Part shown: positions 38,441 to 42,352 of the stretch, one piece after another
Layout of the letters: each line of letters opens with the position of its first letter
How positions within the stretch are numbered: the stretch's first letter is position 1
Source of the DNA: Methylotenera sp.
GTDB taxonomy: Bacteria; Pseudomonadota; Gammaproteobacteria; Burkholderiales; Methylophilaceae
Reading direction: 5' to 3'
NCBI GenBank assembly: GCA_013140755.1
Contig: JABFSF010000026.1
Location: 41,971 to 105,970 of the forward strand
DNA length: 64,000 bases
Notes under the pieces: generated by a model
What the model was told of the DNA's origin: nothing
Database searches by the model: none
The model's input: the letters and a program-made list of their open reading frames with translations, nothing else
Position numbers and translations under genes: made by a program

Positions 38441-41400
38441 CTACCAATCAACTTGGTCAATCTCCAACATTAAGCGATGCGTATTGATTAACGCCGCGAT
38501 TATCTTTTGATAATGCACAATATCTTCATGGTTTAAGGCACCACCTTTGCGGTCTTTTAACCATTTTTGCGCGGGCTGGTAGCCGCCAATGTAAAAGCTC
38601 CAAGCTAGTTCTGGCACGTTTTCAAAATACTGTGTGGCGTTAATGTAAACCTTGCCCGCTTCAAAACTTGGTTTATCCACCACATTACTACCACCAATCG
38701 GGTAATTAATAGCTATGCTTTGCGAACCAATATTCATGTGAGTCGCAGGGTAATCCTCTAAAAGATGTGTTTGGCGTAACTCGCCACCCAAAGCCACTAA
38801 TTGCCAAAACGTAGCGGCATCTTTAGGGTAAGGCACACGCGGAAAATCTATTTTTAAAAACTCTTTATAGGTTTCGCGGTAAGTTGGGCTGTGCAACACG
38901 GCGTAAATGTAATCTAGCAGGTCAATGGGCGCAAATGCAACTACCCCGTCGCTACGCGCCACCCCTTCATTTTGAAGGGGAATAAACTCAGCGGATAATT
39001 CCCCTTCTTTAGAAGGGGTGGATGAGCGAAGCTCAGACGGGGTAGTTGAGGTGGCACGAAGTGACGGAGTAGTTATATTTTGTCTCACAAGCTCAATCAC
39101 ACCACTCAAATTCTTTTTAACTTCAATATCCTGCACATGCAAAACATTCAAACCTAGCCCTTTTAAAAACGTATCGCGTGTTGCATCATATTCTTGTTTA
39201 TCATCGTGCGAGCTACCGTCAATCTCAACAACCAGCGCACACTCATGACAATAAAAATCAACAATATAGTTTCCAATAACACGCTGTCTGTCAAAATCTA
39301 AGCTGTTAAGTTGCTTGTTTTTAACTGCGTTCCAAAATAATACTTCGCTTAAATTGCCTGCTTTGCGTAGCTCACGCGCCTTTTCTTTTAGGGCGGGGTT
39401 ATAGGGTAGTTCGTTTAACTTCGCAACTACCCCGTCGCTACGCGCCACCCCTTCAACTACCCCGTCTGAGCTTCGCTCATCCACCCCTTCTAAAGAAGGG
39501 GAATTAAAACCATTTGCTTCTATTCCCCTTCGGTACGAAGGGGTGGCGCGTAGCGACGGGGTAGTTGCTTTTTCAGCAGTAAATGTAAGCCCCAAACCCT
39601 CCGCGATGACGCCCACGATTTGCATATTGAGGTTGGGCTTCTTACGGGTGGTTTCGGCGAGTAAGTCAGTGGAATCGGGGTAGGTGTAGAGTGGGAATAA
39701 AAGCCCTGCACCATACTGACCAGCTTGTCCTGTGAAATTTCTATCACATAAATTGCTTGAAATAAAAATTCCATAAAGCTCAGTAATTGCTTGTCTTGGT
39801 AACAACAGTGCTAAATTTTCTGACAACATATGTCGCATGACGGAAAATCTATGGCGCACAACTTTTTTTAAGTCATAGCATATATTTCTAGTGTCAAAAG
39901 GACGGTAATTGTATATCTCATTGTCACTATCAAAGCGATTGAAACTTACTAAAGCTTCATCGTCATGAGTTGAAATTCCACTTGAATTTATAATGAAAAG
40001 TTCATTCAAATTGATAAATTTTTTGTATTGAACTTCTACTTCAAAATCTTTCACCGCAAAGAAATAATCAGGTGCTTTCACTTCCAACTCTTGCCAAGGC
40101 ATACTCATAATTGCGCCCGCATTCAAAGCGTCATATTTAGCTTCTCGCTTGCCATATAGGCTGTGGTGAAATACTTTGGCTAATTTTTTGCCACCTGCAA
40201 CTACCCCGTCATCACTACGTGATGCCACTCCTTCATTTTGAAGGGGAATAAATTCAGTGGACAATTCCCCTTCTTTAGAAGGGGTGGCACGAAGTGACGG
40301 GGTAGTTGAAGGGGTGGCGCATAGCGACGGGGTAGTTGTTTTACCCGTTTTAACAAACAAGTTAATGCTCACGCCTTGCATAATGTCAAACACGTTTTCA
40401 TCTTTGCTGCCATCGGGCGCGGTTTCTTTCTTTTTGGCGTTGCCATGCAGGTCTAAAATGTAAATTTCATCAAAACTTTCCAACAAACTTTTACGCATTT
40501 GACGATGAATTAAGCCATCTATAAAGCTGTTGTTGCTAATGTAAGCCAACACGCCTTCGCCGTTTTTATCAATAAAATGTTGCCCAAAGCGAATGAATTT
40601 AATGTAATCGTCTGATAGCGGCTGTATATTGCGTTCATTCAAATCTTTTTTGTAATCTTTGAGTAAATCTTGTATCCAATCGCTTTTGTTGCTGCTGCTC
40701 ACGCTATAAGGCGGGTTGCCCATCACCACCATGACAGGCGCATCGCGCTTAATGCGGTTGGCTTCGTTGGCTTCTACGCTTAGATAGTTAAACAGCGGCA
40801 AATCGGGCGCGTCGTCGTTTTCTAAACTATTGGTGAGGTAAATGCGCAGGCGGTCTTGTGACGTTTTAACTACCGTTTCTAAAGGCACTACCCCGTCACT
40901 TCGTGCCACCCCTTCGTTCCGAAGGGGAATAGAGGCCGATGGTTTTAATTCCCCTTCTTCAGAAGGGGTGGCACGAAGTGACGGGGTAGCCGCGTAAGCG
41001 CCAGTTTCTGTCAGCAGCATATCTAGCTTGAGGTGCGCCATGGCGTAGCTGGTCATCAGTAGCTCAAAACCGTTAAGCCGTGGGATTAAATGCTCTTTGA
41101 CATATTGCGGCCATGCGCCTTGCATATTGGCAAACTGTTTGCCATAAATGTGGCGCACTACTTGCGCTAAAAACGTACCCGTGCCCGTGGCGGGGTCTAG
41201 TATTTGTACTTTGTGGATTTCTTTAGTGAGCTTTTCTGTTTTGCCTTTTTTGCCTGCGCCTTGTACTTCTACTGTGATTTGCGTTTTGCTGGTATCGCCC
41301 AAGCCTTGTGGTAGCTTAAACTTGGTTTTTAAAATATCATCCACGGCGCGGACGATGAAATTCACCACTGGTTCTGGCGTGTACCAAACACCACGCGCTT

Positions 41401-42352
41401 TACGCAGTTTTGGGTCGTACTCGGCTAAAAATGTTTCGTAAAAATGTACCACTGGGTCTTGCTGGCGCGTAGCACGGCCAAAGTTTTGCATAATGCTGGC
41501 AACATCGGTTGCCAGAAAAATTTGCACCAATTCTTCTACTATCCAAAGCAGGCGTTTACCATCACTATCGTCTAAATTGTAGCCCGCGACCGTGCGAAAA
41601 AGCTGCCGCAAAAATGGGTTGCTTTGCGGGATTAACCTTGCCGCTTCTTCACGGCTAAAGTTTTGTAGAGTTGGGTCGTGGTAGCGTGCTGCAAACATGC
41701 CGTAGGCAATGGTTTGTGCGTAAATGTCGGCAAAAGCGGCGTTACTGATGTCGTGTATGAGAACGGTTTTAAAAGCTTCATACTGGTTTTTAAGCTCGCT
41801 TTGGCTTTGATTGGCATCATCTTCATCTAGTGCTTTGTGTATCACATCGGCCATCAGTTTGGCTTTAGCCGCCATCATTTGCGCAAGTTTTACAGGCGAT
41901 TTTATGCTTTGTGTGACGGTGAGCGCAAAGTTTTGAATCAGGCTGGCGAATGTATCAAAGTGTTGTGGGTTGGCAAACACTTTGCCGTTGCTCACTGCGC
42001 CAATCGCGCAACTGGCTTTTAATTCACCTTGCTTATAAAAGTGAAATTGCAGGTAATCGGTAATAATGAGGTTGTCGAGCGCGGCTTTGTAGCGGTTAAA
42101 CTGTTCTTGATACGCTTTGCTACCTAGCTCTGCGCCGATGTCTTTCGCCTCAATATAGCCTAGGGGGATGTCTTTGCAGCTTAAAATATAATCAGGCGCA
42201 CCGCAGTCAATGCGTTTGGGTTCATTGGTAATATCCACATTGGGCAAGAGTGCTTGTAGCAAGTTTTGCAAGTCCCCACGATAACTGTGTTCAGTGGCTT
42301 TGCCCGTTTGAAATAACGCGGCAACACGGCGGATATATTCTGCGATGGTCAT
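38441..42352 (-). CDS. Single-polypeptide restriction-methyltransferase (type ISP/IIG-like, no helicase) with four in-frame repeat insertions and an embedded DUF559 domain
   Basis: N-terminal PD-(D/E)XK-like GAPDYIL..LGYIEAKD; MTase motif I DPATGTGTFLAQ; motif IV NPPY; C-terminal target-recognition-like region; internal TTPSLRATPS...EGVARSDGVV peptides; no helicase motifs seen. Confidence 0.88.
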   Translation of the reverse strand: MTIAEYIRRVAALFQTGKATEHSYRGDLQNLLQALLPNVDITNEPKRIDCGAPDYILSCKDIPLGYIEAKDIGAELGSKAYQEQFNRYKAALDNLIITDYLQFHFYKQGELKASCAIGAVSNGKVFANPQHFDTFASLIQNFALTVTQSIKSPVKLAQMMAAKAKLMADVIHKALDEDDANQSQSELKNQYEAFKTVLIHDISNAAFADIYAQTIAYGMFAARYHDPTLQNFSREEAARLIPQSNPFLRQLFRTVAGYNLDDSDGKRLLWIVEELVQIFLATDVASIMQNFGRATRQQDPVVHFYETFLAEYDPKLRKARGVWYTPEPVVNFIVRAVDDILKTKFKLPQGLGDTSKTQITVEVQGAGKKGKTEKLTKEIHKVQILDPATGTGTFLAQVVRHIYGKQFANMQGAWPQYVKEHLIPRLNGFELLMTSYAMAHLKLDMLLTETGAYAATPSLRATPSEEGELKPSASIPLRNEGVARSDGVVPLETVVKTSQDRLRIYLTNSLENDDAPDLPLFNYLSVEANEANRIKRDAPVMVVMGNPPYSVSSSNKSDWIQDLLKDYKKDLNERNIQPLSDDYIKFIRFGQHFIDKNGEGVLAYISNNSFIDGLIHRQMRKSLLESFDEIYILDLHGNAKKKETAPDGSKDENVFDIMQGVSINLFVKTGKTTTPSLCATPSTTPSLRATPSKEGELSTEFIPLQNEGVASRSDDGVVAGGKKLAKVFHHSLYGKREAKYDALNAGAIMSMPWQELEVKAPDYFFAVKDFEVEVQYKKFINLNELFIINSSGISTHDDEALVSFNRFDSDNEIYNYRPFDTRNICYDLKKVVRHRFSVMRHMLSENLALLLPRQAITELYGIFISSNLCDRNFTGQAGQYGAGLLFPLYTYPDSTDLLAETTRKKPNLNMQIVGVIAEGLGLTFTAEKATTPSLRATPSYRRGIEANGFNSPSLEGVDERSSDGVVEGVARSDGVVAKLNELPYNPALKEKARELRKAGNLSEVLFWNAVKNKQLNSLDFDRQRVIGNYIVDFYCHECALVVEIDGSSHDDKQEYDATRDTFLKGLGLNVLHVQDIEVKKNLSGVIELVRQNITTPSLRATSTTPSELRSSTPSKEGELSAEFIPLQNEGVARSDGVVAFAPIDLLDYIYAVLHSPTYRETYKEFLKIDFPRVPYPKDAATFWQLVALGGELRQTHLLEDYPATHMNIGSQSIAINYPIGGSNVVDKPSFEAGKVYINATQYFENVPELAWSFYIGGYQPAQKWLKDRKGGALNHEDIVHYQKIIAALINTHRLMLEIDQVDW
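38940..39074. repeat. Palindromic repeat array 1 (full element 38940-39047 plus right-arm half copy 39050-39074)
   Basis: actaccccgtcgctacgcgccaccccttc...gaaggggtggatgagcgaagctcagacggggtagtt + ggtggcacgaagtgacggagtagtt. Confidence 0.93.
39075..39425 (-). other. DUF559 (Vsr/very-short-patch-repair endonuclease-like) domain embedded in frame between arrays 1 and 2
   Basis: KLNELPYNPALKEKARELRKAGNLSEVLFWNAVKNKQLNSLDFDRQRVIGNYIVDFYCHECALVVEIDGSSHDDKQEYDATRDTFLKGLGLNVLHVQDIEV. Confidence 0.9.
39426..39566. repeat. Palindromic repeat array 2 (left-arm half copy 39426-39455 plus full element 39456-39566)
   Basis: actaccccgtcgctacgcgccaccccttca + actaccccgtctgagcttcgctcatccaccccttc...gaaggggtggcgcgtagcgacggggtagtt. 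Confidence 0.93.
40200..40337. repeat. Palindromic repeat array 3 (full element 40200-40307 plus half copy 40308-40337)
   Basis: actaccccgtcatcactacgtgatgccactccttc...gaaggggtggcacgaagtgacggggtagtt + gaaggggtggcgcatagcgacggggtagtt. Confidence 0.93.
40887..40989. repeat. Palindromic repeat array 4 (single full element)
   Basis: actaccccgtcacttcgtgccaccccttcgttccgaagggg...ccccttcttcagaaggggtggcacgaagtgacggggtag. Confidence 0.93.

Follow-up and report, generated by a model that had tools for sequence, protein, structure and literature searches.

Ever since the Rickettsia palindromic elements (RPEs), it has been asked by what means palindromic repeats spread within the proteins of bacteria and why the proteins tolerate them. 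Outside the repetitive extragenic palindromic sequences (REPs) linked to REP-associated tyrosine transposases (RAYTs), we know of no mobility enzyme for palindromic repeats. Homing endonuclease genes and inteins, which place a small endonuclease at fixed sites in conserved genes, include an EDxHD/Vsr-like class (e.g., I-Bth0305I). Repeats of the REP and RPE kind that lie in frame within genes include dimers, can occur several to a gene, and have DNA-metabolism and tRNA synthetase hosts; the CGTC REPs are reported to lack a dedicated transposase (PMC3733652). In Mollicutes the PARCEL repeat, a palindromic coding repeat that has spread horizontally, forms intragenic tandem repeats of surface proteins (PMC2996958). 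The locus described here lies in 64,000 nucleotides of a Methylotenera contig (JABFSF010000026.1, positions 41,971 to 105,970; hereafter the window). It is a restriction enzyme-methyltransferase gene that carries four in-frame palindromic arrays and, between two of them, the coding region of a Vsr-like nuclease domain, DUF559 (a domain of unknown function). The arrays probably represent one mobile element family, a DUF559 gene bracketed by inverted hairpin-forming repeats together with solo repeats, that has inserted in frame at permissive linkers.

Palindromic arrays and nuclease of the host gene

The host gene (38441..42352; this and all features below are on the minus strand) encodes a Type IIG/Type ISP-like restriction enzyme-methyltransferase of 1303 amino acids with all inserts; its insert-free orthologs are about 1050 amino acids long. 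It matches the Pfam families Type_ISP_C, N6_Mtase, Eco57I and MmeI_Mtase, and PADLOC detects REase_MTase_IIG in five stretches. In gene order the open reading frame (ORF) holds A4, A3, A2, DUF559 and A1. Array A4 (40887..40989) is a solo palindrome in a linker of the methyltransferase domain (LTETG^ERLRIYLTNS, where ^ marks the junction), and A3 (40198..40338), a solo palindrome with an extra unit, lies between the methyltransferase domain and the specificity region (INLFVKTGK^KLAKVFHH). A2 (39424..39568) and A1 (38938..39076) stand 5' and 3' of the nuclease module, A1 adjoining the Type ISP C-terminal domain (^FAPIDLLDYIY). A sequence-only reading of the window had described four in-frame palindromic insertions in a single gene. 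They lie where it placed them, to within a few bases, and the frame TTPSLRATPS...EGVARSDGVV does run through all four within the 1303-residue ORF. Its further point that either orientation is readable also holds, since A2, although inverted in polarity relative to the other three, remains open and reads TTPSLRATPSYRRGIEANGFNSPSLEGV.... The proposal of insertions at linkers around DUF559 was right in that these are coding insertions, but A1 and A2 are not independent. They are the flanks of a single inserted nuclease module (palindrome, DUF559, palindrome; 38938..39568) that is missing as a block from five orthologs, and A3 and A4 are solo copies.

The longest exact inverted match in the host gene is 54 nt, and there are 320 matching 14-mers. 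In none of 200 first-order Markov controls did the longest match exceed 20 nt, and the matching 14-mers averaged 0.8; the host gene minus the arrays has zero such matches. The arrays resemble one another with E-values as low as 8e-28, and the inverted arms common to A1 and A2 extend over 59 nt and are 97% complementary. RNA folding z-scores of the arrays range from -8 to -14 (A4, -14.1), and the DNA folding z-score of A4 is -13.6. An Rfam search gave zero matches.

Each palindrome consists of two half-units that face each other over a short spacer, with the half-unit laid out as CTACCCCGTC-[variable hairpin]-CCACCCCTTC-[4 or 5 nt]-GAAGGGGAAT. In the Methylotenera copies, including an intergenic one in genome G151, one half has a 4-nt loop and its partner a 5-nt loop, so that the element has polarity. 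A typical half-unit codes for 15 residues (TTPSLRATPSKEGEL or IPLQNEGVARSDGVV), and gain or loss of a unit therefore preserves the frame; the main hairpin variants among coding copies differ by 6 nt. The hairpin stems are hypervariable yet self-complementary. For example, six distinct 5-bp stems have 29 of 30 pairs Watson-Crick, compared with a mean of 16.8 when the arms are exchanged. With respect to the GTAG and CGTC tags of REPs, the unit holds CTACCCCGTC followed by the hairpin, and GTAG occurs at its 3' end on the opposite strand. Clustering of the copies gave no clean separation by genome versus by site, and copies within the one gene of G143 are 98% alike, comparable to same-site copies elsewhere.

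The DUF559 domain (39077..39421, residues 978-1092 of the fused ORF) matches PF04480 with an E-value of 6.9e-29 and 100.4 bits (curated cut-off 20.6), and profile comparison to PDB 3HRL gave an E-value of 1.4e-16. Its VDF...EIDG..H motif is intact, with D55, E66, D68 and H72 invariant in six relatives. The dN/dS of DUF559 in Type IIG genes is about 0.05-0.1, and by codon comparison the nuclease is shown to be under purifying selection. A DUF559 protein of Caulobacter, VsrA, causes DNA damage in vivo (PMC12907096). An AlphaFold model of the domain had a predicted local distance difference test score (pLDDT) of 60, with no significant Foldseek match (best E 0.4, to the I-Bth0305I catalytic domain), and was not used as evidence.

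Occurrence in relatives and in other bacteria

All genomes were taken as assembled. A family-wide search provided ten relatives of the host gene, five of which are free of all inserts (the second copy in G148, and those in G171, G186, G158 and G092). The comparison with repeat-free orthologs suggested by the sequence-only reading thus yields clean insertion sites, and because these five lack arrays at the same linkers, the arrays are insertions. The A3 array and the DUF559 module are both found in G143, G148, G156 and G126. A3 is missing in five orthologs, and at its site G059 (L051) has an unrelated palindrome instead; the peptide encoded there, VIPAKAG...MDSRLREND, occurs at the DUF559 site as well. 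That an unrelated palindrome has settled at both positions shows the linkers to be permissive. The A4 site is empty in nine of the ten orthologs and holds a half-unit in G148. At the A1 site, empty in five, a half-unit (TTPSLRATPS.EGEL) is present in G126, G143, G148 and G156, and G143 has an additional half-unit at a fifth site. The insertion sites map between blocks alignable to the LlaBIII structure (4XQK); an AlphaFold model of the host protein (pLDDT 37) was unusable. An intein was considered and rejected, the splice-junction residues (C/S at the start, HN then C/S/T at the end) being absent at the insert junctions EK^ATTPSL...RSDGVV^AFAPID.

Other features of the host gene also vary among relatives. 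The two copies of the Type IIG gene in G148 (L047, L048) comprise one with nuclease and palindromes and one that is clean. In G143 (L046) and G126 (L053) the host gene is disrupted by a stop or frameshift outside the inserts, with the nuclease frame still open. Between A3 and the DUF559 module, window positions 39569-40197 (residues ~720-930) are strongly diverged among orthologs and conserved on both sides, the pattern in the alignment that swapping of target recognition domains would produce.

Sequence comparison shows movement of the nuclease unit between host alleles. Between G148 and G156, 12 of 103 DUF559 codons differ synonymously, and over the remaining compared codons of the host gene the figure is 254 of 658 (Fisher p=1.5e-8). 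Identity rises at the left palindrome and drops just beyond the right one, so the borders are the element ends. In the remaining pairs the synonymous divergence of DUF559 is similar to that of the host gene, and the low G148/G156 value therefore reflects exchange rather than slow evolution. A second host is provided by G128, in which a different methyltransferase gene holds in frame a DUF559 of 83% identity together with this repeat. In Polaromonas, a member of another bacterial family, the orthologous gene has no interruption at the site, and a nuclease unit of its own stands just past the 3' end; as judged from this pair, the G128 unit is a clean in-frame insertion. The Polaromonas genome has ~17 dispersed repeat sites, mostly intergenic, along with the cognate DUF559. 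In Polaromonas the main half-unit has as its partner a second hairpin subfamily (CGCCCGTTGGGCA, peptide TTPPVGHPF; L056, L166, L244, L256-L270), which is also found 3' of the nuclease in G128.

The source genome is a Methylotenera, according to its named close relatives. The genome-wide search for copies proposed from the window alone found none dispersed: by pattern search and DNA search of the whole 2.6-Mb genome, every match falls within the host gene, which also holds the genome's single DUF559 copy. Most Methylotenera likewise have the palindrome only in the gene that bears DUF559. Elsewhere the same palindrome peptide is met in unrelated proteins and between genes. The family is also present on three viral contigs (L243, L244, L245), and in L244 some copies are in frame at ORF ends. 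These contigs appear Mu-like by eye, from their ORFs. On plasmids the only DUF559 matches were under 60% identity.

Of 399 genomes sampled from the same order, 157 contain DUF559. Inverted repeats bracket it in 45% of 154 loci from several phyla (alignment score of at least 40; the window's nuclease scores 173). At 620 randomly placed positions within these loci the figure was zero, and among mismatched DUF559 pairs it was 6%. A named-genome subset of 77 loci not selected for intragenic position gave 44%. Another 40 of the DUF559 loci were picked mostly for lying in long frames. Where a long frame contains DUF559, the domain is flanked by palindrome-encoded peptides, with host Pfam domains split or on both sides. 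The hosts of in-frame DUF559 include MmeI, HsdM (three loci), YgiQ, MetG, RecG, DnaG, MnmG, AsnB, LipB and an Eco57I-type methylase, and DUF559 also lies in one frame ahead of MiaA, PrmC and RnpA. Loci without a recognisable host domain (L122, L124 and L126 by Pfam; L127, with flanks near-identical to those of L124) were excluded from the host-gene count. In seven Flavobacteria loci (L181, L183, L187, L194, L207, L208, L238) DUF559 shares a frame with an apparent rnpA just after it, mostly with a TPLKSPQGD-type peptide between.

The insert in MetG, the methionyl-tRNA synthetase, is found in seven genomes of five genera. Since the only MetG gene in each carries the DUF559 unit, this essential enzyme is very probably made with the insert and tolerates it. 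In a DUF559 tree the MetG copies from the five genera group in a single clade, and the Type IIG copies have a clade of their own, nearer to Bacteroidota-type DUF559; on this tree the pattern is one of host-gene-specific DUF559 lineages. The separate clades indicate that in-frame residence probably arose at least twice.

Proposed mobility and alternative explanations

If the arrays and the nuclease unit belong to one mobile element family, as we consider probable, the nuclease would be produced as part of the host frame or from inside it, and the palindromic ends would serve as tolerable linkers and likely nuclease substrates. We infer that the nuclease drives spread, by a cut in the palindrome, close to it or in an empty target, after which repair of the cut would copy the element in, in the manner of a homing endonuclease. 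The solo palindromes (A3, A4) could be scars of recombination between flanking repeats, or could have been moved in trans by the nuclease. Insertions would persist under selection only if they fell in loops and left the frame open. The element-limited exchange between G148 and G156, as read from codon differences, is consistent with homing-endonuclease behaviour. A broader proposal, put forward tentatively and with the odds somewhat against it, is that a wide, unnamed class of palindromic repeats in bacteria has DUF559 nucleases as its dedicated mobility enzymes, much as REPs have RAYTs. The repeat units would then spread in frame through protein genes, essential ones included, with no splicing involved, after a homing-like cut in the palindrome or in the empty site.

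Several observations weigh against element mobility. Cleavage, transposition and homing have not been observed for this unit. No target-site duplication is evident in the ortholog alignment, where the orthologs are too diverged to fix the exact empty site. With the repeat limited to one gene, genome-wide mobility is not visible in this genome. The tract common to G148 and G156 could be the product of ordinary homologous recombination, and the MetG copies could have been inherited vertically rather than by homing. At the threshold applied, about half of the DUF559 loci have no strong inverted repeats on their flanks. In G151 a single palindrome copy occurs without DUF559, whose past presence there is possible.

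The alternative that survives best, although unlikely, is that the host gene arrived by horizontal transfer with inert repeats; the arrays would now be dead, and relatives would differ only by recombination between copies and by loss. Confinement of the repeats to this gene and the variable array lengths fit such an origin, as do the 98%-alike copies within the G143 gene, which gene conversion would give. Dead arrays do not, however, fit a nuclease held at a dN/dS of 0.05-0.1, exchange limited to the unit between G148 and G156, or the same nuclease-repeat combination in the G128 methyltransferase gene and in Polaromonas.

It is also conceivable, with a smaller chance still, that the palindromes are ordinary repeats of the REP or bacterial interspersed mosaic element (BIME) type, moved by a RAYT (Y1 tyrosine transposase), and that DUF559 is a passenger. 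REP dimers within genes are known (PMC3733652), and Y1_Tnp genes are found in the source genome and several relatives. For RAYT-linked REPs a Y1 transposase is expected in every repeat-bearing genome. RAYT mobilisation is less likely here because the repeats are present in G126 and G156, both draft genomes, in neither of which a Y1 transposase was detected. The confinement of the palindrome to the DUF559-bearing gene among most Methylotenera also counts against it, as do inverted repeats flanking DUF559 far above chance in many taxa, with unrelated repeats, and a GTAG motif at the unit end opposite to that of classical GTAG REPs.

Native linker or specificity domains that happen to have palindromic DNA are very improbable: the segments are open, in frame and at domain borders, but five orthologs lack them entirely (the ground on which this explanation was rejected), G059 has its unrelated peptide at two sites, the same peptide recurs in unrelated proteins and between genes, and the homologous peptide without the repeat, which the sequence-only reading had named as its own refutation, was not found among the ten relatives.

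Comparison with known systems

No papers linking DUF559 to palindromes, repeats or mobility were found, as judged from titles, abstracts and term hits, with subscription literature and preprints outside the search; the novelty of the link is accordingly provisional. If the mobility proposal is true, it gives DUF559 a function and intragenic palindromes a testable engine. Annotated fusions, such as DUF559 inside MetG, RecG or HsdM, would then be insertions and not multidomain enzymes.

Among described systems the REPtron has a similar layout, a small DNA-processing enzyme gene between inverted hairpin repeats with solo repeats elsewhere. Its enzyme is a RAYT, of the Y1/HUH tyrosine transposase kind, whereas here it is a Vsr-like DUF559 nuclease, and the units are in frame inside genes. 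Homing endonucleases and inteins are similar in their host-gene-specific lineages and element-limited exchange between alleles. In contrast to these, no intron or intein removes the insert at this locus, which is apparently read through and retained in the protein, and the flanks are palindromic. PARCEL is likewise a palindromic coding repeat spread horizontally, but it lies as tandem repeats in surface proteins; we know of no nuclease partner for it.

The Rickettsia palindromic elements were the analogy drawn by the sequence-only reading, and in part it is apt. They are elements of ~100-150 nt in frame in coding genes, and the arrays here are in-frame palindromic coding insertions of that kind. 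The analogy is incomplete in that RPEs occupy many different genes within a genome, whereas these arrays are all in a single gene, and two of them are the ends of a DUF559 module. The arrays are built around an inserted nuclease whose association with such palindromes extends to many bacteria; for RPEs no nuclease partner is described in the literature examined. From the known in-frame REPs and RPEs this locus differs in its nuclease partner and in the structure of the unit.
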